This document shows positions 42,725 to 64,000 of a stretch of 64,000 nt of DNA, in pieces. The notes under the pieces are model-generated. The model saw only the letters and a program-made list of their open reading frames with translations, was not told where the DNA came from and made no database searches. Both the position numbers and the translations under genes were made by a program. Positions within the stretch are counted from its first letter, which is position 1. Every line of letters begins with the position of its first letter. Origin of the DNA: Amyelois transitella (taxonomy: Eukaryota > Arthropoda > Insecta > Lepidoptera > Pyralidae); the NCBI RefSeq assembly GCF_032362555.1, contig NC_083531.1, positions 2,046,001 to 2,110,000 of the forward strand, written 5' to 3'.

Positions 42725-45700
42725 CTACTGTAACTTAACAGGGGCGAAAATTTGCTCGTGAACCCTAAATTTTGGCGGATTCAGAAAATAGTTAGGCCTT
42801 TTGCGAGGTTTTTCGTGTCTACGGTCGTCCTGATAGACGTGGTCCCATCTGTAATCTACTTCTTTTTCTGTATTCTTCTGCCTATACACAATTACATCGT
42901 CCGGTCGATCTTCCTCTCTGCCCTCGTCGCCTCCTCTCCTATCTTCTCCAATTTCCTCATCTTCTTGATCCCTTTCTTTAAACCTATTTCTATGTCTCTC
43001 TTCCCTACTTTCTTCATTACTCTCTTGCTGTCTACCCCGCACCTCGTCATTGTTGTGGTCACTCTCTGCATCGTTCTTATGTCTTTCTTCTCTTTCCAGT
43101 TCTTCTCGATGTTTCTGAACATGACTCTGCCTATCTTCATCCGATTCGCTTGGCCTTTTTCGTTTTCTATCCCTAGGTTTATTCTTTTCAGTTCTGTCTC
43201 TACTTGTTATTTTATCTCTTTCCCTCTCATGCCTGTAAGCATGTCTATCCCCATTCCCTTCATGTTCTTCTTTGTCCCTAGCGTCTGATTCATCCATTAT
43301 TGGCTCAATTTTATTCCGATGCCTATCTCTGTTTCTTTCGTGTTCCTCTATTTCACCATTTCTACCTTCCTGCTTCTTATTCTTCTGTCTTTCATTTCTA
43401 TGTGCTTCCTCGTCCTCAAAGTCTTCGTCTTCTGGTTCTCTGTCTTCTCTATCTCGTTCTAATCTATGTTTACTTCTCTCTTCATCTTCATCTTGATCAA
43501 TATCGTCATCGTTATCTGGCTCGGGATTTTTATTATTATATTTACTTTTCCCTCTTTCTTCTTCGTGAGGCGCTTCATCTTCATCGATTTCAGGTTTAGG
43601 TCTTTTATTATATTTATTACTTTGACCTCTTTCTTCGTGAGCACCAGCCTCATCATCATCATCATTTGGTTCAGGATGTTTATTATATTTACTTTTACCG
43701 CTATCATGTTCCTGTGGTGTATTATCACCTTCATTTTCTTCTCGAGCGGGTTTTTCGTCGTATTTATATTTACTCCCTTTTTCTTTTAAATGAGGACTAA
43801 TAACTACCTCATCGATAACCGGCTCGGGCTTTTTAGTAAAGCAGTTGACTCCGTAAACGCTGTTTATTTTGATTATGTCCATTTCCGATAGAAGTTGATC
43901 ATGCTGACCCAACGAACGCATTATGGAGCCGTCGGGATCCTGCGAAACAAGACGTTTAAGAATTACTCTTGAGTTAACCGGGGCAGTAAATTATTTTGAG
44001 CAGTTCCAAACAGTGTACATCCTTGCTGAGCAGAACAGAGCAATTGTATATCATCCTGTATTTTATATAAGGCGAATTGTGCGAGCTTATACATCAATCA
44101 GACTACTGCAAATCCTGATGGATTTATAAGATAATAAGTATTGAAGAAAGTAGCCTCCTCCCAAGCCCGATTTTCCTAAAAATTAGGCAAGTTCATTTTC
44201 CTTCCTTTTTAAAATGGAGGGTAAGCCAAAAACAGTAACAGTTACACACGTTCAATATACATGTATAATCCTTCTAACTCTTTCTATCTTACTAGTTAAC
44301 TTTAGAGTTAGAAAGAGAGGGCAGACAAAACGATGTGCCTTGTCAATGATCGTGAAAAACCTGCCAAATTTAAAAACGTACCTTCTCCTTATAAGTGGCG
44401 ACTGTCGATATGCCAGTTCTGCCGATCTTCCTCCAGAACTGCCATGCTGGGTGTGTGGCGCTGTCGTAATCGTACGGCAGGGGCAGAGTCGCGTCTGACC
44501 GGATCTTCTCGAAGTGATGGAGTTTATCTGGAAATTGCAAGACGATGAAGGTACGAGACAAACGGATAATGAATGTTAGTCTTTTCTTTTCTCATAGTAT
44601 AATCCCGTGTATTATAGTTTTTGATTTAAAATTCAGTCCACTTAAGGCGGCATGAATTAAGTGACGGTTTGTGCTCTCTACATACATACAAACATATAAT
44701 CACGTCAATATCCTTTGCAGGGCGACAGAACAGTCTTGAAAAGACTGACGGGTTCATTCTGGACTTAGTCATCATAATTCTGCGTCAGTCTTCATTGCAA
44801 ACCCCACCTCTAAGTGCACCGGCTATCAGTAAAATTTGCTGTAGCATTTAAAAACGCTGTAAAATGGCGCCAATCAAAAACTCACCAGCTCTAACATGTC
44901 TCAAGTGGACTCGGACATGCGCGTCCCTGTCGTGCCTCGCCAACTCGAAATAGAAGCCCAGCATTGCCATTACCATCATGGCGGCATGTTGTTTGTGCTG
45001 GCCGCCTTCGAACAACTCTAGGGCGCCAAAATGCTGAAAAATAAAACTACCGTCTTTAAAAATTGTTTATGTTGGACAAATGTTGTCGGGACGTGTCGAC
45101 CCCATCGCCTGTGGGTGGTAGAACATTTCTGTGGATATACCACCACCAACGCAGTCAGTCAACCCGCTAACACGCACTTAACTAGCGGTGGGACATGGCC
45201 TCTATGGGTACACAGCTCCCAAAAAGACCCCAAGTTCCAAGGTTCCAGATGTGGAACTGTCGTCGACGGGCGCTGTTCGAGCACTGGAGCCTGATCTGGT
45301 GAAGTCCGCGGGGAAACCTTGGATGCAGATCGCCTCCAGAGCCAGGTGGAAGTCATTGGGGATGCCTATGTTCAGCAGGGACGTCCTACGGCTGAAATGA
45401 TGGTGAGGAGACAACTGTCCTTAATTTGGTCCAACTTGTTGGAATTTTTTGTTCCGAATTCTATGTTAAAATGAGCTAGCAAGATCCAATGAGAACCGTA
45501 AAAATCTGAATATTAATTAACCATGTAATTTTAATGAATTTCAAAGAATTGCATAGAATTATTTTTTAAAAATGGAAAAATGGTAAATTTTTCTTTTTTA
45601 ATGAATATTTACTGATTGTTGACTGACAATTTGGTGGGGTCTCATACACGAAGTAGGATTTAACAAGAATACAAATTGAAAATGCGTTAAGGCAAGATGA

Positions 45701-48700
45701 TAATCACTTTTATTAATACCAATTTACATTATACACACAACAGCATATCCAACTATTCAGTCATAGTATTTAAGACGCGTGCTAAAAGGCCTTACTTATT
45801 GCTCAAATTTCAAAAGCATAATTTTCAGATCTGCTTTCGAAACGTGATAATTATTTCTATTATTTAGTATTAAATGATTTATCACATTTTTAAAATCTAA
45901 TATGGCACAAAAATCGCTCAGGTCATCTCAGGCTTTCTGAGCTTGAAGAACTATCAATTTACCAATATTTCTAGTTCTTTATACCAAAGAATCTAATAGA
46001 TTCTTTGGTATAAAGAACAAGACTATCTAGTACCTAGTCCTTTACATTTAAGCATAGGACAAAAACCTTCGAGCCCATGAAGAACAATTAGATATACTGT
46101 TGAGTTTGAATAAGCTTTTGATTATGAGGTAGTCTTAGAGGTAGTTACTTATAACAATTTAAACGAAACTTTCCGAGAAAACAAAAACGTTGTCCGCTAA
46201 ATCGTTGTCATCAAAGCGAACTCCCAAATGAGCAATTGATTACAAATCTCAGAGCATGCTCATAAAATTATCTACTAATATCACACCTAAGACTAAATAC
46301 GATTTTACGATTCAAATCATTAAAAACATAATATTCATTCTTATTGTCTAATACTTGAAAAGTAGCACAATTACCACTTGAAAAAGCAAAATCTCACAGA
46401 GAGAGGATATGCGCCGGACCGGGACTTTTACGTGTAAATTCTCTATACTAGCTTTTCGAAGATTCAGTTTAAATTTTGTTTATACAACAACACACTTTTC
46501 AGTAGAGTAGACGACTCGCCTCTAAATTCGTGTGTTCTTGTCTCGTACGCAAAAATACTTTGCAATTATTCCCACCTAGCGTTGCTCCTCAGTAGTGGAC
46601 TAACGTTAGTTAGGCAACTGAGGCACTTAATGTGGCCTTTTTGAATGTAAACTATCGATAGTTCGCCAACACTGCGTTATTTTCCTGCTACTACTTAATC
46701 CCGATCAGACTTCCTACTACAAAAATAATACTATAGACCTCAATACGATTGCAATAATTTTGATAACTAATAGTATCCGCGGAACAAAATGCCTTGTAGC
46801 AATTGTTAATTGAGTGAGTGGTATCAAAATCAGTGCAATGTATGAAATATCAGATGTTTCTAATAAAAGCGTTAAATATATACTGATTTATAACAAAGAT
46901 AATACATCAACAGTACATACATATGGTTAAAAAAATATATGAGATCTATATAACAACACAGCCAAACAAGAACTTACAGTACAAATGTTAAGCGGTCTAG
47001 GACTATGTAAGTTGAAACAGCTAGAAATATTTGCAATTAAGAGTTAGAATATGTCCCTGAGAAATAATGACTATTTGAAGCGTCGATAACACTTTACACT
47101 TATTTAAAAAATACATAATAATGAGATAAAATTTGTTAACAAACTACACAGTCAATTTCAAAAATTACCCGCTACTAACTACGTCGTCTAGATAACAAAA
47201 GCTAAATTTTAATTTAACGTGAGCATAGAAAGTGAATTAAATTTTATGTGATCCGCAAAATGCTTCGTTAAAATTTTCACTAATAAAATATCCACAATTT
47301 GCTTCGTCAAATTTGTCATAATCAACAAGCTACTGTCACAATTATCAAAATATAATTCTCAGAGACATATTTGGTTAGTCAAATGTTAAAATAACTTTAA
47401 TGGGTGGGATGAGTTATATATGTATATTGGAAGCTGTAAATAAGGCACATGAGAAGTATTCTTCCTGTCACTTCAGAATCGCTGTATTTGTGTAAATGTC
47501 CAAAGAAGGTATCTCGGCGCGATATGGCACGGGTTATTGCTTATTCACTCTTCTATAGCACCAATTTCTATATGTATTTATTGTCTTAGTGGTACGGTTT
47601 TCATTCGAGTATCACAGTTGAGGTCTCCATAAGTATTAATATTGTATGCACCACAATGCTGCAAGGTGGATATGTGGTTCTTGATAATCACAGCACCTAC
47701 AGTGTTACTGATGAATCACTGAATAAGAGTTGTTGCATAATGAAAAGCCAGATCAACAAACAACTTAAAACGAGGATATTAAAGGTCTTCGTCGTTTTTC
47801 TCGAACTGCTTCTCCAAAGTTGTGTTAGAGCTGTAGGCTGGACAGTAGAGAGATGAACTGATGAAAAACACAGACGCTTACACCACGGCTGAAGAATACC
47901 ACCTGATGAGGGTTTTCGAATTGTAAATTAAAAATTTTCTTACATTATCTGGTAGATCATCGGCGATATGAATTTCACAGGAAAACTACATACGGCGAAG
48001 TTAAAAAGTTGCTCTTCTATGAACTGTTTATAACTAAAACAGTTGGTGAAGTCACTGAATAATAAATATAAGTTTTTCCCGATAGCACGTGCTGTAAAAA
48101 CGGCTCACTTAGCGTCTTTAAAAATATGCGAGTAATGACAAATAAGCATTATAAAAAGTAAATTGGTTTAAAATTTATACAAACGAAATATTGTCCGCAT
48201 TATTAAAATCGATGTTATTTAATTAATAATTAACTGTCTAAAAAAACTTTTATATGTCTTGAATGTGAAATGGACAATCTAGTGAACCATTTCAAATAGT
48301 GCTGAAAAGAGAGAAATGTAATACGAAATATATATAATTATTCTTACCATTAATAATACGGACGTTCTGAAAGACACTGAAGAAAAATCATTTGTACATA
48401 TATTGCTCCATCAAATCTCCTGAAATGTCAATACATAAACTACTTAAAATTCCAAAAATAAAATGATGATTAAAAATGGGATAAATGATCAAAAATACTT
48501 ACTCATTATAACCACAGTCACTTTTGCAACCTTACCATACTTATTTGTGCAGTTCGTCTACTGAAGTCGATTCCTGGTCAAGTGTAGCTTGGTAGGTCTC
48601 GCTCCTCTGCCTCTTAGCTTTGTGTCTCAAAATATGACCATAGAACTGCTTCAAAATGTCCGACCACCTCTTCATCAACTCCGTCATCTTTCTCTCATAC

Positions 48701-51700
48701 TCCTCACGAAGACAATCAGTGTTTTTATCCAACCATTCCATAGCTTCTTCAATTTCAGTGTCCATCACAACTTTCTCTTCAACCGACATTTTGTCCCCTT
48801 TTTCAGCGATCGTGTTCTTAACTTGATAAACGTAGTTCTCCAGCTGATTCCTCGCTTCTAGACACATTCTTCGTTCTTTATCTTCTTCCTTGAAAAATTC
48901 AGCGTCTTCTAACATTTTCGCAATCTCATCCTTTGTAAGTCTGTGCTCATTTCTAATGATTATTTTCTCGCTGTTTCCCGTGCTACGATCTTTAGCCGAT
49001 ACAGTGAGAATACCGTTGACATCAATATCAAAAGTGACGTCAATTTTTGGTATACCTCTTGGTGCTGGTGGAATACCATTTAAGTCGAAAACCCCAAGTA
49101 GATTGTTGTCTTTGGTCAAAGATCTTTCACCCTCAAATACTTCAATAGTCATAGATACTTGGTTATCGTCCAAAGTTGTCAAATCTTTGGTCAGTCGGCA
49201 CGGTATGAGCGTGTTTCGGTCAACAACTTTGCACATTAGACCTCGAGCTGCTTCGACGCCCAAAGATAAAGGAACGACATCGAGAAGCAATATATCCTGG
49301 ATTTTCTCGTGAGTTTGTCCACTTAGTTTAGCTGCCTGTATCGCAGCTCCATAAGCCACAGCTTCATCAGGATTAATGGAGGCATTTAGCGGTTTGTTGA
49401 AAAATTCCTTTAACATGCTCCTAATCTTTGGTATTCTAGTACTTCCACCAACGAGAATGATTTCATTTATCTGATCTTTGGTCATTTTTGCGTCTTGCAA
49501 AGCCTGCTGTACTGGCACAAGCGTGTCTCTGAAGAGATCTGAACACAGCTCTTCGAATAAGGACCGAGATATTTTTCCATGGTAGTCAATGCCGTCGTAT
49601 AGAGATTCCACATCAACTGTCGCTTCCGTAGCTGAAGTTAGGAATTTTTTCGTTCTTTCCGATGCGGACTTCAATCTCCTCAATGGCCGTGGGTAACCTA
49701 TTATTTCGATATTGTATGTTTTCCGGAAATCTTCAGCGAAATACGCGACTAGTCTATTGTCAAAATCTTCTCCACCCAGTCGTGTATTTCCAGCAGTGGC
49801 TTTTACCTCAAAAACTGATCCTTCTGCGATGGTAAGTATTGAAACGTCCAAAGTACCGCCTCCTAAGTCAAAGATCAATACATTTTTCTCTCCTTTTAAG
49901 TTATTTTCTAAGCCATAAGCTAAAGCAGCCGCTGTAGGTTCGTTGATAATTCTCAATACTTTCAAACCTGCCAACGTTCCCGCTACTCTAGTAGACGAGC
50001 GCTGGGAATCATTGAAATACGCTGGAACAGTTATCACGGCACTGTCTACCTCACAACCTAGGTAAGCCTCAGCTGACTGCTTCATCTTCGAAAGAATCAT
50101 TCCACTTATTTCTTCTGGTGCAAACTTTTTCTTCTCATCCTTATACTCCACAGTTATAACAGGCTTACCGTTTTCGTTGGCCACTTTGTACGGCCAGTGT
50201 CGAAGATCCATTTGGACGCCTAAATCGTCGTATCTCCTTCCAATAAGTCTTTTCGCGCCAAACACTGTATTGCACGGGTTAAACGGAGCTTGGTATTTTG
50301 CCGGTTCACCGATTAAACGTTCTGACGATGTAAAAGCTACATACGAAGGTGTCGTCTTATTTCCTTGTTCGTTCACTATCACTTCTACATTTCCATGTCG
50401 CCACACGGCCGCGCAAGAAAACGTCGTGCCTAAATCTATTCCGATCGCCACCATTTTTCACAACTTAATTCTAAATCCCGCCACAACGATCCGTCACGTA
50501 TTGCCGGTGTAATGAAACTACCCTCGAACCTGATTCGACCGCAATATATACCCTCGGCCAATGACGACAAAGAAAATTCGAGAGCACCAAAATTCTCGAC
50601 CAATCGGAACGCGATATTTGTAGAAAGTACTAGAGTTGGGTTGCCAGTGTTATAAAAAAATTGTTACACATGTTTTTGCTAATGTTTGTGTAGCTTCTTC
50701 GCTTATTGCATTTTTTATTAACTATTTTTATTTTTATTTATCTCATATGGATTCATCAAAAATGATAACAATGGCAATAATATAATATTGTAATAAGTAA
50801 TCAACGCAATTATTTTCATATTTTTAATACGATAGTATTACATTTTTCTTATTTAAGCAACGATGATTAAGAAATTTTTTTAAATTATTTCTTCATGCCC
50901 ATTAATATAAATATTTTAAAATATATTCATTGAATAAAATCTGCTTGGTATATACCACTCAATACATTTTTATAAATTCCAACTTCGTTTATTAACACAG
51001 TAAAACAGGTGTGATATCTTTGTAATACAGTTAATATTTATCATTGAATCTATTTTCATAGTTGGTACATATTAAAATAAGTTACACAACGTATAAAAGT
51101 TACACCAAGTGTAGAAAATTTTCACACTGGCCACCCAGTTCATTGCTCCGTTCGCTGACGTCAAATAAGCACATGTACTATCTCTATTTCTTTCACGCGC
51201 GCAGTCTTTGTACCCTTTGTATTCGTTCTATCTCTTTCACTGCCGACTCTCACATTATTTATGCGTAGTGTTAGGGCTCATTCATATAAATGTTTTCATT
51301 AAAGTTTGTCATTCATAGGGGAAATTAAAATAATATTCGCACATTTAATCGATTCAAAGTAGTAATATAAAGTAGAAAATTTTACAAATTATACTTCAAA
51401 TTGTTCAAAGAGGCTGGTATACCCAAGAAGAACAAGAAATGTGCATAAATTAGTGTTAGATGTAATACTGTAAAGTAAAAGATTTAAAAATAATTGTTTA
51501 CTTTATGTGCAATGCATATCTATATTTAACAAAATAGGGGGATTCAAGGAAAAAAATGTTGAACATACTTTACACACATAAATACTTCAATTTTAGATAG
51601 TAATTTAATTTAATCAAATGTTGACATAACGGAATTAACATTTACAGTTAAATAGAAATAACAATATCATCAATTTATCCTTTATTTAACGGGTAATCAG

Positions 51701-54183
51701 ACGGAAATATGTTCTGTACCCCGTTGTAAAACCTTATAAAAAACAAATAAATGTTCTTTTCATTAGCCATTAATATTTAAGTATTTTTTTGTTTTTTCTT
51801 TTTAAACAAGCTATTCTTTAAAAAATATATGTTTATAATCCAATTCATATAGACGATAACATTGAAATAAAATAAAAATATAAATTTGACCACATATGTG
51901 ACTGCACCCTTACATTGTTTTTGATCCCAAACTCGTCACGCGCGCTCAAAATGAAAACAGTTTTTTTTTCTAATAGTATTTGTGATAAACAGGTACTTTT
52001 ATTAGCCTTCTATTGTATTATAACTATTATTATTTTATTTAACTTTTATGTAGGTACTTTCGAGATGATTTTACGAGAAATTTCCGAATCATTTTATCTC
52101 TGTCATTTTACCTGAACACTTAGTGAATTTTACATTTTTCTTGTGCAAAATGGTATTCCTATTTACATACATATTGTAAACGTTTCAAAGATTTCACTGA
52201 ATTACTAGGCCTACATACAATCCTCTTAATCAATTATTCAATGTCTCGTCATTTTCAACTACCTACATACCTGTAATTATCACATCTTTACAACTTTACG
52301 ACGCAGATGAATCCACAGTCACAAGACTCCGAGAACGCATTAAGATTTATGATAACGTTCTGGTGAAAAGTCAGTCAAATTTTAGACAAGCTTTCATGAA
52401 AAGAATGATACCTAAATGTGAATGAAGCAAGAGAAGAATGCAATGATACTGCGGAAAGAAAGTTTAGAAAAATGTGAATGAAATGCAAAAAACTAAACAG
52501 GGCCGCTGGCAAATGAAAAGGTATAAGCCCATCCCTCTGAAATACATACACCTGCCTGCCCCCAAATCTGCCACTAACATTGTCGGTAATTCAGTCCGGC
52601 ACCAGCGGGGTAGACAGAGCCAACAGTCTCTTAGACCCGAAAGCGACCTTCGTCTATATTAATGATGAAATTCAATGATATATATTTTTAAGACAAACCC
52701 ACCTGCTTGCCCCCAAATCTGCCAGTAACATAGTCGGTACTCCAGTCCGGCACCAGCGGGGTAGACAGAGCCAACAGACTCTAAGACTCGAAGGCGACAT
52801 TCGGCTATGTTAATGATGAAATTTTCTGGGATATGACATAAGTAAAGGCGACTAAAGGATAGGCTTACAAACTTGGGATTCTTTTTTAGGCGATGGGCTA
52901 TCAACCTGTCACTATTTTAATCTCAATTCTATCATTAAGCCAAATAGCTGAACGTGGCCATTCAGTCTTTTCTAGACTGTTGGCTCTGTCTTACCCGCAA
53001 GGGATATAGACGTGACCATATGTATGTATGTATTTTCAATCCAAACCCACCTGCCTCCCGCCGACCCTGCCAGTAATATAATCAGCGCTGCCATCCAGCA
53101 CCAGATAGTCCTCAAACCTCTCGGCGTCCTGCTCCGTGATCTCCTCCAGGGTCACACACGTGCGAGCCTTCAGGATGCCGTTGACGGCGTCCAAACGCCG
53201 TCTGAGGTCAGTCAGGTCATCTGTTTTTGCATTAAGAAGCATGGTAGATATGCAAAAAACATAGAGGATTCACATAAGAATGGTATTCAAAACAAAAGGA
53301 TTCACATCACTTGCCGTGTGGTTCCCGGCACTAATACAAAAAAAGAATAGGAGCACGCCATCTCTGAACCATGGATGTCGTAAAAGGCGACTAAGGGATA
53401 GGCTTACAAACTTGGGATTCTTCTTTAGGCGATGGGCTAGCAACCTGCCACTAATCGAATCTCAATTCTATCGTTAGGCCAAATAGCTGAACGTGGCCAT
53501 TCAGCCTTTTCAAGACTGTTGGCTCTGTCTATCCCGCAAGGGATATAGACGTGACCATATGTTTTTCCCGTTATAATAAACATTCATACCATATAATCAC
53601 GATTATTTTTCTTGCGGGGTAGACTGAGCCGACAGACTTCAAAAGACATAAATGCCACGTTCCGCTGTGTTTTTTTTCTCTCCGATATTAGCATGGAAGC
53701 TTGCACTACATGAATGTGCGCCTGATTCCTTAGTCACCTTTAACGACATCCATGGGATAAAATAATAAAATAGCCGTGTGGTTCCCGGCACCATTAGAAA
53801 AAAGAATAGGACCACTCCATCTATTTCCCACGGATGTCATAAAAGGCGACTAAGGAATAGCCTTATAAACTTGGGGTTATTCTTTTAGGCGATGGGCTAG
53901 CAACCTGTCACTATTCTAATCTTAATTCTATCACTAAGCCAAACAGCTGAGTGTCTACCCCGCTAGGGTATAAAGTTTGAGTGTTCCTATTCCAAACCGC
54001 ACGGCAGTACTTACATTTCTTATCATTAGTGATAATATATCTAACAACACCATCAGGCCACTTCCTTTCCCCATAAAACTCCTTGTTCTTCTTCGAAAGC
54101 TGCACCGTTATGGGCACAGCACGCTCCTTTTTATTCCTTTTTGCTTCTTTTCCATCGACCCTGTAATCATGTTCAGAGCAAAC
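42725..54183 (-). CDS. Astacin-family pseudopeptidase A with long charged tail (5 exons seen)
   Basis: Exons 54183-54015, 53220-53051, 45033-44886, 44527-44382, 43939-42725 (TAG); phases match throughout. Together they give one astacin domain of normal length (about 200 residues): [17 protein letters not shown] at its start, [44 protein letters not shown], and [18 protein letters not shown] at its end. Active astacins carry HExxHxxGFxHE and a SIMHY Met-turn. Here the first is [12 protein letters not shown] and the second SATHP, so all three zinc-binding His, the catalytic Glu and the Met-turn Met are gone. The fold should persist without protease activity. The last exon adds about 370 residues rich in Glu, Asp, Lys and Arg, opening with three repeats of a KYNK(x)PEP...DDDE...EERG unit. 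The propeptide exon starts VCSEHDYR; no signal peptide exon was found. The 8-kb second intron contains the HSP70 gene. Confidence 0.8.
45214..45391 (-). pseudogene. Stray degenerate astacin-like exon
   Basis: After a good acceptor (catcatttcag) the frame reads [19 protein letters not shown] then [13 protein letters not shown]. The spacing fits the astacin HExxHxxGF region, with only Glu, Gly, Phe and the downstream Arg kept. It starts in a phase that does not fit exon 53220-53051 and runs to a stop. It may be a relic of a third astacin or an alternative end for gene A. The boundary at 45214 is a guess. Confidence 0.35.
45400..48530. other. Astacin A intron and HSP70 3' flank
   Basis: No coding stretch found apart from the 45-bp palindrome described separately. 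It presumably includes the HSP70 3' UTR. Confidence 0.5.
45974..46018. repeat. Perfect 45-bp palindrome (22 + 1 + 22)
   Basis: gttctttataccaaagaatc... followed after a single central A by its exact reverse complement. It lies in an intron of astacin gene A, between its exons and HSP70. Confidence 0.95.
48541..50454 (-). CDS. Heat-shock protein HSP70, intronless, without EEVD end
   Basis: 637 residues in one exon. The ATPase domain has [10 protein letters not shown] (about residue 4), [36 protein letters not shown] and [12 protein letters not shown]. The linker reads [17 protein letters not shown], and the substrate-binding domain and a helical lid follow. It has no signal or transit peptide, so it should be a cytosolic or nuclear chaperone. 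The C-terminus is [10 protein letters not shown]: the EEVD tail that binds TPR co-chaperones such as HOP and CHIP in standard cytosolic HSP70, and the Gly-rich GGMP stretch, are absent. DELHK is not an ER-retrieval KDEL. The lack of introns fits fast stress expression, and heat-shock elements lie upstream. The gene sits inside an astacin A intron on the same strand. Confidence 0.95.
50541..50636 (-). promoter_or_regulatory. HSP70 promoter: TATA box, inverted CCAAT boxes, heat-shock elements
   Basis: On the minus strand TATATATT lies about 90 bases upstream of the ATG (about 50543-50550). CCAAT (plus strand) occurs at about 50558 and 50610. A heat-shock element of GAAaaTTC type is at 50572-50579, with an imperfect third unit (GAG at 50582-50584), and a weaker one (GAAagTACtaGAG) starts at 50623. 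Confidence 0.7.
50640..52540. other. Astacin A intron upstream of HSP70
   Basis: AT-rich, no exon recognised. A more mixed block at 51120-51270 is of unknown origin. Confidence 0.45.
52551..52756 (-). pseudogene. Two decayed copies of the astacin GGRQ exon
   Basis: 52756-52699 reads [24 protein letters not shown], close to [18 protein letters not shown] of exon 53220-53051. 52605-52551 is a second copy with an in-frame stop (LVPD-stop) and a GTGTAT donor. In both, the 5' half of the exon is replaced by a SINE-A piece joined at the same place. Confidence 0.75.
52840..53035 (+). mobile_element. SINE-A, 5' truncated, beside astacin exon
   Basis: TATG tail ends about 16 bases from the donor of exon 53220-53051. 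Confidence 0.85.
53312..53965. mobile_element. Cluster of three SINE-A copies
   Basis: Forward 53312-53570, reversed and decayed 53590-53757, forward and 3'-truncated 53773-53965, between two astacin A exons. Confidence 0.85.
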
Positions 54184-54193
54184 CTACCAGAGC

Positions 54194-54465
54194 CTTAAGC
54201 AGACAAAATTAAATAAATAAATAAATAAATATATACGGGACAAATTACACAGATTGAGTTAGCCTCGAAGTAAGTTTGAAACTTGTGTTACGAGATGCTA
54301 ACTCAACGATACTATATTTTGTAATAAATACTTGAATAGACAAACATCCAAGATCCAGACCAGTCGGAGAAAGTTCGTTTCTCATCATGCCCTGACCGGG
54401 ATTCGAACCCGAGATCTCCGTAGTCACAGACAAGCGTATTACCGCTGCGTCACAGAGGCCGTCAA
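54194..54465 (-). mobile_element. SINE-C, near full length
   Basis: Reverse-orientation copy with (AAAT)n at its low-coordinate end and the tRNA-like head at its high end; just upstream of the astacin A exon 54183. Confidence 0.85.
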
Positions 54466-54639
54466 AATACCTATCATTTTTTTTTATTTCTAGTTCTACC
54501 TACTTTTTACACTAAATTCTCAAAAAAAATACGTGATCTACTATAATGTACTGTACGGCTCGCCACGGCTACACACATAGCCTTGAACACCCGCAGACAA
54601 TGTTTGCATTTTCATGAAGAAGAAAGAAAGAAAAATATG

Positions 54640-54800
54640 TTTATTTTGTAACATAAAAACATAACAAGGACAATACAATACAAATTATCTTTATAGCTCA
54701 TAAAAAATACATATGGAGTAGAAACATACATTACGAATATGTTGAGCAAAGGCGGACTTATCGCTAAGCAATCTCTTCCAGCCAACATAACAAGGACCAT
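54640..54800 (+). mobile_element. Non-LTR retrotransposon 3' fragment
   Basis: Same block as at 1.26 kb, better preserved (ggcggacttatcgctaagca then tcttccagccaac). Confidence 0.55.
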
Positions 54801-54844
54801 AAAAGAATAAAAACAATTAACCTATAACAATTTTGTACCAAAAT

Positions 54845-55045
54845 TGCCTCTCAGCATTCAAATTATTATAGGATACTTCATATCGCTTAATAATTGTCAC
54901 ATCTTTTTGTTTCACAACATTGGTTGTCGTGAAATAAGTTACTTAAAACTAAGTTTACTGCCGCTTCCAAAGCGTCAGTGCAGAAGAAGCGGTAAAGAAC
55001 TGCACTGCAGCATTTTCTTCAACAAAGTCAACTTCACAACAATCC
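54845..55045. mobile_element. LINE-like 3' block, one of an inverted pair
   Basis: Contains 'gccgcttccaaagcgtcagt' and recurs reversed at 59085-59245 (actgacgccttggaagcggc). Confidence 0.55.
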
Positions 55046-55268
55046 AAACTTAGAATAGAAATGTGGACGAGAGAATACATTGTTCAGATTAATTTATTTA
55101 TATGAGATTTTGAAAATAAATAAATAAAAAATTGTCGTAGTATATAAGTAGGATATCAGAACGCTGGTCTTCCGCGGGGACCATGATAAAAAAAATAATA
55201 AATAGGTTTTTCTCAAGATTAGTCTAACAAACAAACTTATACAAGTATAAATGTAAAAGAGATCATAC

Positions 55269-55388
55269 CTTTTCCTGTTATCTTTACGTTTATTTCTATG
55301 CCCTTCTAGAACCTTCTTTTTAGGTCTCTCCGTCTTCTCCATGGTGATTACGGACTCGTCCCACTTCATTTCGGTTTCCTTCCGAACG
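55269..55388 (-). CDS. Orphan exon between the two astacin genes
   Basis: Acceptor cccttgtag and donor AAAAG|GTATGA bound an open, highly basic stretch (VRKETEMKWDESVITMEK, then RNKRKDNRKR). It would join in phase to an alternative donor (CGAAG|GTATAAGT, about 56258) near the end of astacin B, replacing its short terminus. It could also be a 5' exon of astacin A, though its end phase does not fit exon 54183 unless another donor is used. Confidence 0.4.
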
Positions 55389-55592
55389 CTACAAGGGTAA
55401 ACGGGCAGCTTCCAAAAAAATATCTGACTAAAATCTAACAGTGAGTTACGAAAGATTCCTATTGATATGTAGACGTAGGTATTAATTTTGAATTGTCATA
55501 GTTCAAATTAAATATCTCATTATCTTACCTACCGACTAAATTTAAGAAAACATAACCTAGTCCTTCGTTTTATTTTTTATTATAAAAATATT

Positions 55593-55835
55593 ACATACAT
55601 AATCACCAATCAAGTTTATATCCCTTGCGGGGTTAACAGGGCCAACAGTCTTGATAGACTGATAGGCCACGTTCAGCTGTTCTGCTTAATGATAGAATTG
55701 AGATTCAAATAAAGACATGTTGCTAGCCCATCGCATAAAAGACGAATTCTAAGTTTATAAGCATATCCCTTAGTCGCCTTTTACGACATCCATGAGGAAG
55801 ACTGGAGTGCTATCGGTGCCGGGAACCACACGGGT
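55593..55835 (-). mobile_element. SINE-A
   Basis: Reversed copy, head accacacggg at its high end. Confidence 0.85.
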
Positions 55836-56248
55836 ATTAGGACAATGATTACACTAATTGGGAATTTGAAAGAGTCCCTAATGTTCCTTTAGTAACTTGA
55901 TACTGAAATATACTGTATTATTTATGAAAATAAAAACAGGAAACAATTTCTCACATTTCAACACGACCTGACTGGGGATCGAATCTTTACTTTTAAATTC
56001 AAAAAGCAATAGCAACAACCACGCCTTATAGGTCAATTTAGCGACTTTGCTGACTCAAATTGTGTCACTTCTGTTAAACATATCATTGATCTGAATAATA
56101 TTAGTAATAAACCTATTAATAATTGTTTTATTCAGATTTGAAGCCCACAAGTAAGACTAGGAAAAAAATACAATTAAATAAAAAGCTCCTGCAATTTTAT
56201 TCTGTCAAACGTTATCGCCAATTATAATATATGATTCTTCACAAAAAC

Positions 56249-59200
56249 TTACTTATACCTTCGCCCGATAAACTCTTGCGCTTCTCTCTTCTTCCTCTCA
56301 CTCTCACCTCCCAATTCTTCTTTATTACCTACATCTCTTTTTTTTCTTTCACCATCGTCAGGATTTTCAGGAGTATCATCAGTTCTTCTACCTTGGTGAT
56401 ACAATATAGGTCTATGATAACTACCTGCGTGTTTGGTTGATTGTGGAATTATAGGTCTGTGTTTGGTAGAATGGAAAAGAGGTCCGGTTTTGGTTGATCT
56501 ATAGAAAACTGGACATCTATTAGCTCCACCACTGTAATAGCTGCATCTCTGTCTTTGATATGATTTAAAATCGTCCACCGCTTCGCAAAATGCTGTTATA
56601 TTACTCAGAGCATGATCGACCATATCTTTCACATACTCTGCGATGGTTTCAACAACGCCAAATATATCAGGCCTCCTTTCGGCAGAACGTCTAACAAGTT
56701 TTATTTCATCTTTAGTAACGTTAGTTACGTTACAATACTTGATTCTCGTTTTATTCAACGCTTGAGCACCTAACTTGTAAACGAAAGATGTTACTTCGTC
56801 AACGCCATCTTTAATACCCAAATCTTCTAATAATCTCATGAATTCCTCCTCTGCATCATTCGTACTATTATCTGCAAGTTCAGGTGGAGCTGTTATATCG
56901 GGATTAACTCTTAAACTCTTAACTTCAGTAGGTTTCACCTCTTCTTTCTGTGTGACTGGCTCGTCTACATTTCTTTTTTCTCTTACAAAATCTCCTACTT
57001 CTCTCTTCCTTCTAGCTACACCGGGGAAACCTTGACATAGATCGATCTTCTCTAGACGATCTCTTTTCCTGCACTCAGGGCCATAGACAATGTCTATTTT
57101 CCGCAAGTCTAGATCAGAGAGTCCCTCTCTTTTTTGTTGTACTTTGTGATCCTAAAATTTGTGTATAAATTAATTTGTACAAAAAAGTATTGTTCATTTA
57201 GTTTGATAGGAACATAAATCTATAGTTATTATGAGAATAATATTTATTTATTTATTTATTCTGTATTGTAACATTTACAATTTGTAAAGTACAATAGGCG
57301 GACTTAATGCTGATAGCATTATCTAACAGTCTACAATTGGGTTAAGCAGAGAATCTTTGTGTGGATGATAATAAATAATGTATAATTTATGTGCCGTGTG
57401 GTTCTCGGCACCAACACAAAAAAGAATTGGACCACTCCACTCCCATGGATGTCGTAAAAGGCGATAAAGGGATAGGCTTATAAATTTAAGATTCCTTTTG
57501 AAGGCGACGGGTTAGCAACAAGTCACTATCAATTAATAAGCCTATCCCTTAATCGCCTTTTACGACATCAATGGGAAAGATATGGCGTGGTTCTATTTCT
57601 AAACCCGTAAACCACACAGAAGCGTTAGTAACTAGACATAATTATACTTTTATTATCGTCATCAAGCTAAACCTATCTTAAAAATAAATAGTTTTAATAA
57701 ATACAAGTTTATACCAAAATAATGATAGTCCTGTGTCCATTCTTACTAAATTCTCTTTCACCGAAATGCATTACGCTGTTCAAATCATAAGGAAGCGCGC
57801 GCAACTCAAATGGTAGTTTGTCGTCCATTGAAAAAAGATCCATGGCGCCTGAAAATAAGGTTCAAGATAATCTATACTAATATTATAAAGCTGAAAAGTT
57901 TATTTGTTTGTTTGTGTGTATGAACACGCTAATCTCAGGAACAACTGGTTCAAATTGAAAAATTATTTTTGCATTGAATAGACCATTTATCGAGGAAGGC
58001 TTTATAATATCACGCTGCAACTATAAGGAACAAAGAAATAATGAGAAATGTGAAAAAACGGGGGAAATTATTCATCCTTGAGGGCTTCAATGATGCCCAA
58101 TACTATAACTATTCCACGCGGACGAAGTCGCGGGCACAGCTAGTGATATTATTATACATAAATATTTTGCTAATTCCATGAGAACTATATCGTGATGACA
58201 AGTATTTTAGGGGTCTTTTAAATAATAATCTGTTTAGTCTGTAATTTAGAATAGTTTTTTTTCCTTCAATAAATAATATTATTTTAGATTAAAAATATCT
58301 ATCATTTTCTTAGTTCACAATTCAGGAGATAACGCGTGAGAGACAAAAAACAAAATAAATATGGTTAAGCTTACTTTCGCATTTATGATATTAGTTGTTT
58401 ATTTCCAACTTATAAATGTGCGTCTGGGCGCAATTTTTAAAGACCTTTTGTGCCTCTCAAAGTTACTTTTGCCTATTCTTGTTTAGTCAACCAATGTTGT
58501 GAAACCAAAAGATATGACAATTACATACATACATACGGTCACGTCTACATCCTTTGTGGGGTAGACAGAGCCGATAGTCTTGACAAGACTGAATGGCCAC
58601 GTTCAGCTATTTGGCTTAATGATTGAATTGAGATTCATATAGTGACAGGTCGCTAACCCATCGCCTAAAAAAGAATCCCAAGTTTTTAAGCCTATCCCTT
58701 AGTCGACTTTTACGACATCCATGGGAAAGAGATGGAGTGGTCCTATTCTTTTTCGAGTGCTGACCATTGGTGGTGAAATGTCAGTTAAATGGATCAGAAT
58801 TACAATAAGAAGGATCCTGGGCGTGGATACAAAGTGAAAACTAGATAACGATAAAAAAAACATCATTATCTTATGAATTTATTTAATTAATTTAAAAACA
58901 AATTTTTATAAACAAAATATGTGATGCAATCTGAAAGATAACAGTAAGAATACATTTATATCTTATAGATAAATTAGATTGGACCGGTATGCGCAAATGA
59001 ATAAAAAAAATCGTCTGGTAAGTTATCATCTAGTAGGTACAATGATGTTGAAAAATATAATTAATCAAGAAAATACATTATTACCGCTTCTTCTGCACTG
59101 ACGCCTTGGAAGCGGCAGTAAACTTAGTTTTAAATACCTGATTTATTTGACGTCAACAACTGTTGTGAAACCAAAAGGTTTAACAATTATCAAGCGATAC

Positions 59201-62200
59201 GAAGTATCCTATAATAAGAATAAAAATTTTGAATTTGAACTTTGAATTGCAATTTATCATTAAAAATTACATGAAAACTTTATGCAAATGGCACAAAGAG
59301 ACCACTGGCACCGCGCTGGGCTCGTGGGGCGCCTCCCCAGCAGCGCCGGCTATATCCAAGTGCGTATACTTCAAATTCTTATCATCCAACCCCCCAATTT
59401 TAATCAAAAACCCAGCAGCGAGCTGATGATTCCTCGCTTTCGCATCAGTATCGTACTGCACCAAATCATCACCCTTACACTTTCCTACATTCACAGCTAA
59501 ATCTTCTTGGCGCACGATGGACACTTCTATACCTTCAGCAACTCTGGAGCCGCTAAATTGTAACTTGCCAGAATGATTTGTAGCTCTTGCACTGTGGTTG
59601 TCCATTGCAGCAACGTTATTTCCGTAACAGGCACGAGCGTGACCCGTCAACGTGGCGATCGTATAAATATGAGGATTGAGCTCCTTGCTAGCACTATCTG
59701 CCATTTTAAACAACGCATCTGCCATTGCCAGACGACCTTCAGCATCGGTGTTAGTTACTCTCACAGTTTTCCCACTCCTCGAAACCAATAATTCATCAGC
59801 AACGTAAGAATCAGACCCTACGGAGTTCCTGCAGAGGCATAAAACTCCAGTCACTTTCAAATGCGGCGGCTTTAAGATAGAACAAGCCTTCAGGAATCCT
59901 GCTACTACTGCCGCTCCACATTTGTCCCTTGCCATGCCAGCCATTCTGCCGGAAATCTTGATGTCAGCACCGCCTGTGTCATATGTCACACCTTTGCCGA
60001 CTAATATCAAAGTTTCAGTTACCCTAGAAAGATCAGACGGCTTATATTCGATTTCAACAACTCTCGCCTTGTGTCTGTCTACGCGACTGGCGGCTCTATT
60101 AACAGCAGCCAAAAGAGGGTATTCCTTTGCAATCAATTTTTCATCGTCAATAACATTAATTGTAATATTACTTTCACCAGCAAAAGAGTTCTTGATGTAC
60201 TCAACAATGTTAGCGGGAGCCATTCTTTCTGGATCAGAGCCACCGATGTCCCTAGCTATGATTCTAGCTCTTTCCATGGCTATAGCGTTCCTCACAATTC
60301 TCTCAAAACCTTCACTTAATTGTTCTTCGGCATGGAAACCAATTTTCGTGAAATTGTTCGGAGCAACTCTTTCTCTCATTTGCAACGGCGAGTACAGAGC
60401 TTCCAGCGCTCCCATTACACACACCAACTGTGCATCAGGAAAATGGACGACACTTTGAACTACAATCAAAGGACTTTTAGCTCCAGCATCGAGCGCCCTC
60501 ACCACTCCTTTCTGGGCGGCTTTTTTGACAACAGAAACATCGTGATAAGGAGTCACTTTACCAATCGGAGATATTATAAGCCTCCCTCCGGATACATAAT
60601 CGCAATTCCACACTGTCACACTATTATTAATATGTTTATCTATCTTCGCAGCTTTATCTACAAAACTTCCAATATGTCTCGGCAAATTAACACCTAACTC
60701 GTCCGGGTATAGAATGAACACTACAGCATCGTAATCGGTGTTTTGTAAATTTGTTTCTATGAATATATTATCGTACAATTTGTAAAACACCTCGTGAACA
60801 GACATGTTGCTCCCTTTTGATTTGAGTCCGCAATGAGCGCCGCCCGTTATCTTTCGTAAATGACAGATACGACGGGATTAATTAAGAGATATGGTTGTTT
60901 GCGCAATGCGCAACCAATAACAGTAGAACACTTTATCTTCCATTGTTCCGAAGTAATTGTAAATACGGTTTATTGTTTGTTTCTCATATTTAATGTCTGA
61001 CATAAATTAAGGTACGTTAATAACGTGCAACTTATAATTAAGTCTGTTAAGGATTCGCTTAAAAATCTGGAGGTACAAATCTCATGAAAAATACTTAATA
61101 CTTAGTTAAATTGTTTTAGAAAAAACTTGTGCTAAATACGTACATACAAACATATGATCACGCATCTTTCACGGCAGAGACTATTCTTTCCAAGATTTCC
61201 TCATACTTCTTTCGCTTCATCCACATTCATCATTCCCTTAGGGTATCTAATCCCCGATTTGATCAAGGTAATGAATTGATAAAAATGATAAGAAATTTAA
61301 ACTTTAATCTATAAATGGTTTTAGTAAATTCAACAGGAGTAAAATCCCAACTAGGTATTATAAATTTTTGTTTGTTTGTTTGTTGTCATTGCACGCGTTA
61401 CCTTAACTGAACCAATGTTCTTGAAATGGAGAAAGAATACTAATTTTAAAGTAAAAACTAAAATTCTCGCGGCATTTGCGTTAAACCTGTATTATTATGT
61501 AGATGGCGCTATATTCGCACGGGCGAAGCTGCGCATAAAAGCTAGTTTATAATAAACTAGCGGCCCGCCCCGGCTTCGCACGGGTGGACATATTTTTGTG
61601 TTTTATATTTTGAAATTAATTTATTTCAAAACAAATTTATGCCTATGTCACTTTTGAAGGTCTATTCTATATCTGTGCCAAATTTTATCAAAATCGGACC
61701 AGTAGCTTTTGAGTTTATTCCACACAAATATACAAAAATACAAATCTTTCCTCTTTATTATTAGTGTGGAAGTGTGGATGTGGATGAGACAAGTAGGAGA
61801 TGTTGTCTAGTTAAGCCAAGAGACGTGATACTAATGCGACGTATTAAGATAATGCCGAAATACGTAAAATGACGAGCTGTCAACTAAACCAAAATCTGGT
61901 ACAGGGCGCGAAGTAGGAACAGTAGCTCGTTCTTCAGGGTACCGCAATGTACCAGGGCGCTCCACGCCGACACTATAGGCCCTTAAGGCAAGGTTAGTCA
62001 AGATAAAACCCTTAAGGTTGAGCGTTGCATTGCTCGCATTGCTCAAAGGCAAAGTCCAAGGCCGAGGTTCGTCCCAACTGGAAGCCCCTTGCTTTTGCCG
62101 AAAAGGCTGTTGAAGGAACATCAGGCCCTCGCCTAAAACTGTCCCGCTGTAATAGTTAATGCCCCTCAGGCAAACTATGTTCTCATAGTCAAAAAAAACT

Positions 62201-62344
62201 CTTACTTGGATCAATATTCTCCTTCTGAACGCTGATATATAAGTTCCGTATGGCCCGGTTATGTTCAAACCCAAATCCTAAAGCCTTCATTATCAACATA
62301 TCTATTTGAGGGGACTGAAGACAGTCGTAGCCGAGAGTCAGGTA
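56249..62344 (-). CDS. Astacin-family pseudopeptidase B, 3' part (3 exons seen)
   Basis: Exons 62344-62206, 57848-57715 and 57151-56249 (stop), in the same phases as the homologous exons of astacin A. They read YLTLGYDCLQ, MLIMKALGFGFEHNR where active enzymes have HExxHxxGFxHE, ALPYDLNSVMHF (Met-turn Met kept, Tyr changed to Phe), FSKNGHRTI, and GLSDLDLRKIDIVYGPEC at the domain end. All three zinc His and the catalytic Glu are replaced, so the product should be inactive as a protease. A tail of about 270 residues follows, with RRKR and KKR sites open to furin-like cleavage, several N-glycosylation sequons (NST, NKT, NVT, NIT) and Cys residues, suggesting a secreted product. The 5' exons (signal peptide, propeptide, first third of the domain) lie beyond 62.35 kb and were not found. 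An intron holds the aminopeptidase gene. Confidence 0.75.
57389..57625. mobile_element. SINE-A inverted pair
   Basis: Forward 5' half to about 57530 facing a reversed 5' half to about 57625. Confidence 0.75.
57871..58143 (+). mobile_element. Helitron-like element, complete ends
   Basis: Same family and ends as 32.6 kb. It lies 23 bases from astacin B exon 57848-57715. Confidence 0.8.
58520..58755 (-). mobile_element. SINE-A, 5' end missing
   Basis: Reversed; the head is lost after cctattctttttcg. Confidence 0.85.
59085..59245. mobile_element. LINE-like 3' block, inverted partner
   Basis: Reverse-orientation partner of 54845-55045, sitting just past the stop codon of the aminopeptidase gene. 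Confidence 0.55.
59267..60805 (-). CDS. M17 leucyl aminopeptidase-like protein, intronless
   Basis: 512 residues. The C-terminal catalytic domain carries the M17 signature NTDAEGRL. The metal and catalytic residues are in place: Lys and Asp in GKGVTYDTGG, Lys in ADIKIS, Asp in MARDKCGAA, and Asp, Glu and Arg in the signature. M17 enzymes are hexameric two-metal exopeptidases, mostly cytosolic, that remove N-terminal residues. The N-terminal domain is longer and less typical than in bovine LAP and resembles the putative-aminopeptidase branch of the family. There is no signal peptide. The start MSVHEVFYKLYD is the first Met of the open frame. The whole gene is one exon inside an intron of astacin B, same strand, which could mean a retrocopy; no poly-A tract is visible after the stop. 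Confidence 0.93.
   Translation of the reverse strand: MSVHEVFYKLYDNIFIETNLQNTDYDAVVFILYPDELGVNLPRHIGSFVDKAAKIDKHINNSVTVWNCDYVSGGRLIISPIGKVTPYHDVSVVKKAAQKGVVRALDAGAKSPLIVVQSVVHFPDAQLVCVMGALEALYSPLQMRERVAPNNFTKIGFHAEEQLSEGFERIVRNAIAMERARIIARDIGGSDPERMAPANIVEYIKNSFAGESNITINVIDDEKLIAKEYPLLAAVNRAASRVDRHKARVVEIEYKPSDLSRVTETLILVGKGVTYDTGGADIKISGRMAGMARDKCGAAVVAGFLKACSILKPPHLKVTGVLCLCRNSVGSDSYVADELLVSRSGKTVRVTNTDAEGRLAMADALFKMADSASKELNPHIYTIATLTGHARACYGNNVAAMDNHSARATNHSGKLQFSGSRVAEGIEVSIVRQEDLAVNVGKCKGDDLVQYDTDAKARNHQLAAGFLIKIGGLDDKNLKYTHLDIAGAAGEAPHEPSAVPVVSLCHLHKVFM
61460..61765. mobile_element. Two Helitron-like fragments meeting at CTAG ends
   Basis: A forward 3' end (gcataaaagctag at 61545) faces a reversed one (ctagcggcccgccccggctt from 61557). 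Confidence 0.65.
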
Positions 62345-63897: not shown

Positions 63898-64000
63898 CTA
63901 AATTTAAATAAAAACAGAGTGAAATCTTCTAAGGAAATTTAGAAGAGTCCTCTTTTAAAATTTACGTGGGTAGAATTCAGTCCGAACTGCTGGGGTCGAG

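Follow-up and report, generated by a model that had tools for sequence, protein, structure and literature searches.

The stretch of Amyelois transitella DNA analysed here (the window; 64,000 nucleotides) carries a minus-strand gene whose predicted product contains two domains of the astacin peptidase family, both without the zinc site. Twelve exons, extending from position 65058 to 42725, join with matching phases into a single frame of 1149 amino acids (Table 1). An earlier note on this DNA had described a cluster of two neighbouring genes between 42725 and 62344; both dead zinc helices do lie in that interval, but the gene runs on through exon B3 and two 5' exons beyond base 64000, and the parts belong to one gene. 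At E ≤ 0.01 each domain matches only its own exons in this genome, and no second locus appeared. The donor of exon B6 was placed at GTAAGT, as in the NCBI model P0045 (LOC132903547, Amyelois transitella); moving it six bases upstream would shorten the protein to 1147 amino acids. The protein comprises, in this order, a putative signal peptide, pseudo-astacin domain 1, an orphan segment with four cysteines, a charged linker, pseudo-astacin domain 2 and a charged tail. The hydrophobic N-terminus, MWLYVICLVFIGTV, was judged by eye to be signal-peptide-like, and several homologue models have no such start.

The existence of two separate neighbouring pseudo-astacin genes could be argued from automated models of other species that hold one domain only (e.g. 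Scirpophaga, Dendrolimus), and from the in-frame Met codons within exon A1. This alternative is very improbable, and is rejected by the junction between exons B6 and A1, which is in phase, and by the resulting 1149-residue frame. The same two exons are joined by P0045, a model of 463 amino acids without eight of the twelve exons, which is identical to the present model over 384 residues and diverges where it skips exon A2. Many lepidopteran proteins, including most long homologues, hold both domains in one chain, and the open stretch that precedes exon A1 contains neither an in-frame ATG nor a signal-peptide-like start, short exons elsewhere not being exhaustively excluded. In addition, P0031, an uninterrupted 701-amino-acid frame on a 2,624-base contig that begins late in domain 1 and continues through domain 2, looks like a spliced transcript from a related species spanning B6 and A1, although this reading is weakened by P0077, which is of the same source type and resembles read-through genomic DNA. 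P0049 (a 237-amino-acid frame on a 792-base contig) likewise has the appearance of a spliced transcript. Because of P0031 and P0049, expression is supported, if only indirectly. Both domains are, with near certainty, encoded by a single gene.

The assignment to the astacins, for which the earlier note had proposed a search with the Pfam profile PF01400, was borne out: with the cut-off at 22.5 bits, the two joined halves reached 100.1 and 62.5 bits, which argues against a chance match. When the whole genome was searched exon by exon with the same profile, 17 matches were obtained, distributed over contigs C3, C8 and C21. The window had none, presumably since the divergent domains score too low when taken one exon at a time. 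The predicted structure of domain 2 is an astacin fold.

As the note had stated, the zinc motif is replaced in frame in both domains, with MLIMKALGFGFE in domain 1 (exon B4) and the corresponding helix of domain 2 in exon A4. In an alignment of 36 rows, 31 show the motif of domain 1 and 32 that of domain 2; every one of these has lost the three zinc His together with the catalytic Glu, and HExxH occurs in none (0/31 and 0/32). The sites are dead as well in Plutella, which stands outside this alignment. The zinc ligands of domain 2 are replaced by Met, Ala and Phe, with Met at the first His in 31 of the 32 rows and Phe at the third in all 32, and the zinc Tyr of the SxMHY turn has become Pro in 32/32 cells, one row (P0023, a truncated isoform) not being comparable. 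At the third zinc His, domain 1 has Phe (29/31) or Leu (2/31), and its zinc Tyr is Phe in 30/31, the odd row being P0032, which runs into a nested gene. The family-specific Glu after the third His is retained in 30/30 rows for domain 1 and 28/29 for domain 2 (rows chosen by coverage from the 36); the exception is again P0032, fused with the nested aminopeptidase and misaligned in the domain 2 set, whose conservation values it depresses. Retention of "DRD or equivalent", also claimed earlier, holds for domain 2 as RHDRD, but the place is taken by NRAIRN in domain 1 of Amyelois transitella.

The two domains resemble the astacin peptidases (MEROPS M12A, PF01400: astacin, hatching enzymes, BMP1/tolloid, meprins) in family score and predicted fold, in two motif residues (the Gly and the final Glu), in the turn His, in the Cys matching C42 and C198 and, for domain 2, in the DRD-type motif. 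Of the Cys that would make up the two astacin disulphides, C42-C198 and C64-C84, domain 1 thus has all four at the matching places, whereas domain 2 has the outer pair and has lost C64 and C84. The domains differ from M12A members in having neither the zinc Tyr nor the catalytic Glu nor any of the three zinc His, and in occurring as two per chain. A prosegment with the FxGD aspartate switch was found neither before domain 1 (0/18 chosen models) nor within 60 residues ahead of domain 2 (0/18), a search that would miss a diverged prosegment. Both domains are almost certainly inactive as astacin proteases.

A search with the joined protein returned 37 proteins, comprising 35 family members at E < 1e-50 (34 with lepidopteran names) and two distant ordinary astacin proteins. 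Profile searching of 7,993 candidates gave at least 43 matches, 11 of them new and including Plutella; all but P0031 carry lepidopteran names. Combined, the searches gave at least 46 family proteins, 45 of them lepidopteran by name and several of them fragments. Non-lepidopteran two-domain relatives are absent from the 35 family matches and from the profile matches listed, which, with the candidates capped, is no proof of absence. A mixed single-domain search yielded 39 matches, six of which are ordinary astacins with HExxH intact (including beetle, bug, two fish models and frog); the remaining ones, not each checked, resemble fragments of the two-domain family. Automated annotation breaks the gene, models of several species swallowing a nested HSP70 or aminopeptidase gene.

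Averaged over 16 homologues, column identity reaches 0.71 for domain 2 and 0.63 for domain 1, falls to 0.43 for the middle segment, and is lowest for the charged linker (0.19) and the tail (0.16); the linker thereby shows, within the same protein, what drift looks like. Among rows chosen by coverage (30 for domain 1 and 29 for domain 2), the 20 best-conserved residues of domain 2 are the dead site itself, and 5 of the 193 twelve-residue windows of this domain, the motif's own included, equal or exceed the motif in conservation. That the gene is decaying, or a pseudogene relic, would be in line with the loss of every catalytic residue and with the diverged exon A3 fragments nearby, and is scarcely credible given a frame that is open over twelve exons and the difference in identity between domain 2 and the linker. 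The pattern points instead to a peptidase fold that has been retained by selection across Lepidoptera without its catalytic residues. The earlier description of the domains as inactive and under constraint is thus upheld as regards the missing residues and the protein-level conservation; its further claim, that they are expressed, has the indirect support mentioned above.

Domain 2 has also gained histidines. Eight of its columns are His in 30–32 of 31–32 rows, and for five of these the count is 11–12 of 12 domain 2 rows compared with 0–1 of 11–12 ordinary astacins. Four of the five make up two HxxH pairs, one just before the old helix and the other in the strand after DRD, while the fifth is the second His of KLHHF. 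These five residues could belong to a contact surface or, less likely, to a new metal site. That domain 2 has acquired another metal site or chemistry through them is improbable, since Plutella is without one His of the first HxxH and without the His of RHDRD, ordinary astacins, some or all of them, also have His at the remaining three columns, and domain 1 has no such cluster. Equally little credence is given to a broader version, in which a rebuilt domain 2 would bear a relocated metal-binding or pH-sensing His surface with a new activity, within a two-headed proprotein that releases three bioactive pieces.

A site of the form R-x-[KR]-R follows domain 1 in 35/35 sequences and the four-cysteine segment in 29/29, the others among the 37 examined being without an anchor; the Amyelois sites are RRKR and RKKR, respectively. 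Cutting by a furin-type convertase is, on this evidence, likely. Four Cys are found between the two sites in 15 of 16 sequences and three in the other. A Dickkopf identity for this middle segment was considered and is not believed, the score of 15.7 bits being below the cut-off of 27. The low-complexity tail measures 371 residues in Amyelois, 60% of them K/R/D/E/H, and 131 in Hyposmocoma, compared with 2–35 in the other 22 of 24 models. The long Amyelois tail and the recurrent Cys would suit a structural or matrix protein, in which the astacin fold is a stable shell and the charged linker, the four-cysteine segment and the tails carry the function; this is rather unlikely, as conservation is lowest in the linker and the tail, and the latter is so short in nearly all of the models.

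The arrangement is probably that of a secreted proprotein with two catalytically dead astacin-fold domains, which is cut by a convertase and acts without catalysis. The precursor would be secreted, and a furin-type convertase would cut the two conserved sites to release pseudo-astacin 1, the four-cysteine middle piece, and the charged linker together with pseudo-astacin 2. The cleft of domain 2, its zinc ligands replaced by Met, Ala and Phe, would then form a fixed binding surface together with the gained His. The most likely partner of this surface would be an extracellular protein, which might be a component of the matrix or else a protein that active astacins cut or that regulates them. A binding or regulatory role is somewhat favoured by the conservation pattern. 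Several observations weigh against this proposal. The dead helix may be conserved because it packs the core where zinc sat, and not as a binding site, and the motif of domain 1 is only moderately conserved, with 39 of 184 twelve-residue windows as conserved. Foldseek TM-scores by query are moderate (0.45–0.67 for animal astacin rows), and the alignment behind the good domain 2 model held ordinary astacins, which favours the astacin fold. The full-chain model of P0004 was poor (pLDDT 49.4) and was not used, so that domain 1 is without a good model. Finally, the convertase sites are sequence matches only, in a protein whose linker is rich in K and R.

Regarding origin, the intron phases 1,0,1,0 are common to exons B2–B6 of domain 1 and exons A2–A6 of domain 2. 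A cluster of astacin-like genes X, Y and Z, of which Y and Z are partly assembled, lies on contig C21 of the same genome. Gene X has an intact motif, HEVMHILGFSHE, and joins in frame with phases 1,0,1,0; with domain 1 it shares the Y-G-x-x-C end and the NPxG[IV]RxC stretch (NPLGIRQC in X). As both domains have these phases in common with X, a paralogue whose zinc site is intact, an active X-like ancestor and an internal duplication of the five-exon module are suggested. Other loci vary at the second intron position, where L001, L003, L004 and L007 have no intron and the exon continues, and L006 has one a few residues off; the intron evidence for a shared origin is therefore supportive, not unique. 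Six other Amyelois astacin loci, X included, retain HExxH, whereas gene Y is without the Glu (HLFVHILGLDHQ) and gene Z without the Glu and the third His (HSLLHALGFKDE), so that loss of catalysis seems to recur in the group of the C21 cluster.

The question of a shared or a separate loss, raised earlier together with a tree as the check, was addressed with and without these paralogues. In an unrooted tree without the full C21 cluster, the two domains fall on one side of a branch and the 12 ordinary rows on the other, with support of 97/89. With the C21 cluster included, domain 1 groups weakly with it (73/82), and a clade of the two domains is neither shown nor rejected (p-AU 0.476); the C21 rows are short pieces joined by eye, and X is short of a few residues at two exon starts.

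The introns of the pseudo-astacin gene hold two intact intronless genes (Table 1). Gene models of Arctia and Iphiclides contain both HSP70 and astacin domains, for which reason the nesting of HSP70 looks old. Models of Spodoptera, Chilo and Brenthis fuse the leucine aminopeptidase with pieces of the pseudo-astacin protein. The end of exon A3, along with its donor region, recurs nearby in two partial and diverged copies, and a mitochondrial ribosomal protein exon is located just upstream of the gene.

Table 1. Exons of the two-domain pseudo-astacin gene, followed by nested, neighbouring and related features. Positions are those of the window unless a locus or contig is named.
Feature	Position	Strand	Remarks
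Exon B1	65058-64980	-	Signal-peptide-like start; beyond window
Exon B2	64542-64471	-	WPNGTVPFYI; beyond window (base 64000)
Exon B3 (3rd of 12)	63590-63409	-	Pseudo-astacin domain 1 start, TCLKF...NPDGVRQC; CAG acceptor, GTAAGT donor; phase 1 in, 0 out
Exon B4	62344-62206	-	Domain 1 dead zinc helix MLIMKALGFGFE at the HExxHxxGFxHE position
Exon B5	57848-57715	-	PYDLNSVMHFGERE; Met-turn retained, zinc Tyr replaced by Phe
Exon B6	57151-56253	-	Domain 1 end (IVYGPEC), RRKR, orphan four-cysteine segment, RKKR; donor GTAAGT
Exon A1	55388-55269	-	Charged linker; spliced to B6 in phase 2
Exon A2	54160-54015	-	Pseudo-astacin domain 2 start
Exon A3	53220-53051	-	RTCVTLEE...GRVGGRQ
Exon A4	45033-44886	-	Domain 2 dead zinc helix
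Exon A5	44527-44382	-	Met-turn Met and zinc Tyr both lost
Exon A6	43939-42725	-	Domain 2 end (INSVYGVNC), long charged tail, stop codon
Charged tail	43835-42725	-	Low complexity
HSP70 gene	50454-48541	-	Intact, intronless; PF00012, 762.9 bits; nested in A3-A4 intron
Leucine aminopeptidase gene	60805-59267	-	Intact, intronless; PF00883 (M17), 211.5 bits; nested in B4-B5 intron
Partial copy of exon A3 end	52679-52756		76% identical DNA
Partial copy of exon A3 end	52552-52605		In-frame stop
Mitochondrial ribosomal protein exon	L009:4099-4908	-	MRP-S28 family, PF10213, 40.3 bits
Astacin-like cluster X, Y, Z	C21:5,881,900-5,892,000 (L015/L016)		Same genome

In the accessible part of PMC11266112, inactive metallopeptidases belong mostly to the M12 (ADAM) and M14 families, and no astacin pseudopeptidase is named. 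A survey of astacins verified an intact zinc motif in its hits, and would for that reason have filtered out pseudo-astacins (PMC9848320). No description of a two-domain pseudo-astacin was found in the open-access literature, including the accessible part of PMC5553785 and leaving subscription papers uncovered, nor was any open-access paper found for the gene numbers of Bombyx and six other species. The closest parallel is offered by the ADAM pseudopeptidases (ADAM2, 7, 11, 22, 23 and unc-71), metzincins that likewise combine an extracellular metzincin fold with a replaced zinc motif. In ADAM23 this motif is QSLAQNLGIQWE, and some of these proteins act in protein contacts, according to the same review (PMC11266112). 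They differ from the lepidopteran protein in peptidase family and domain plan, and the latter has two dead domains per precursor and convertase-type sites. In its mode of action, the lepidopteran protein would come nearest to these ADAMs. With its wide conservation and single locus, the two-domain pseudo-astacin offers a clean case for asking why a dead protease fold is kept, and the silkworm and the pest moths that carry the gene are editable.
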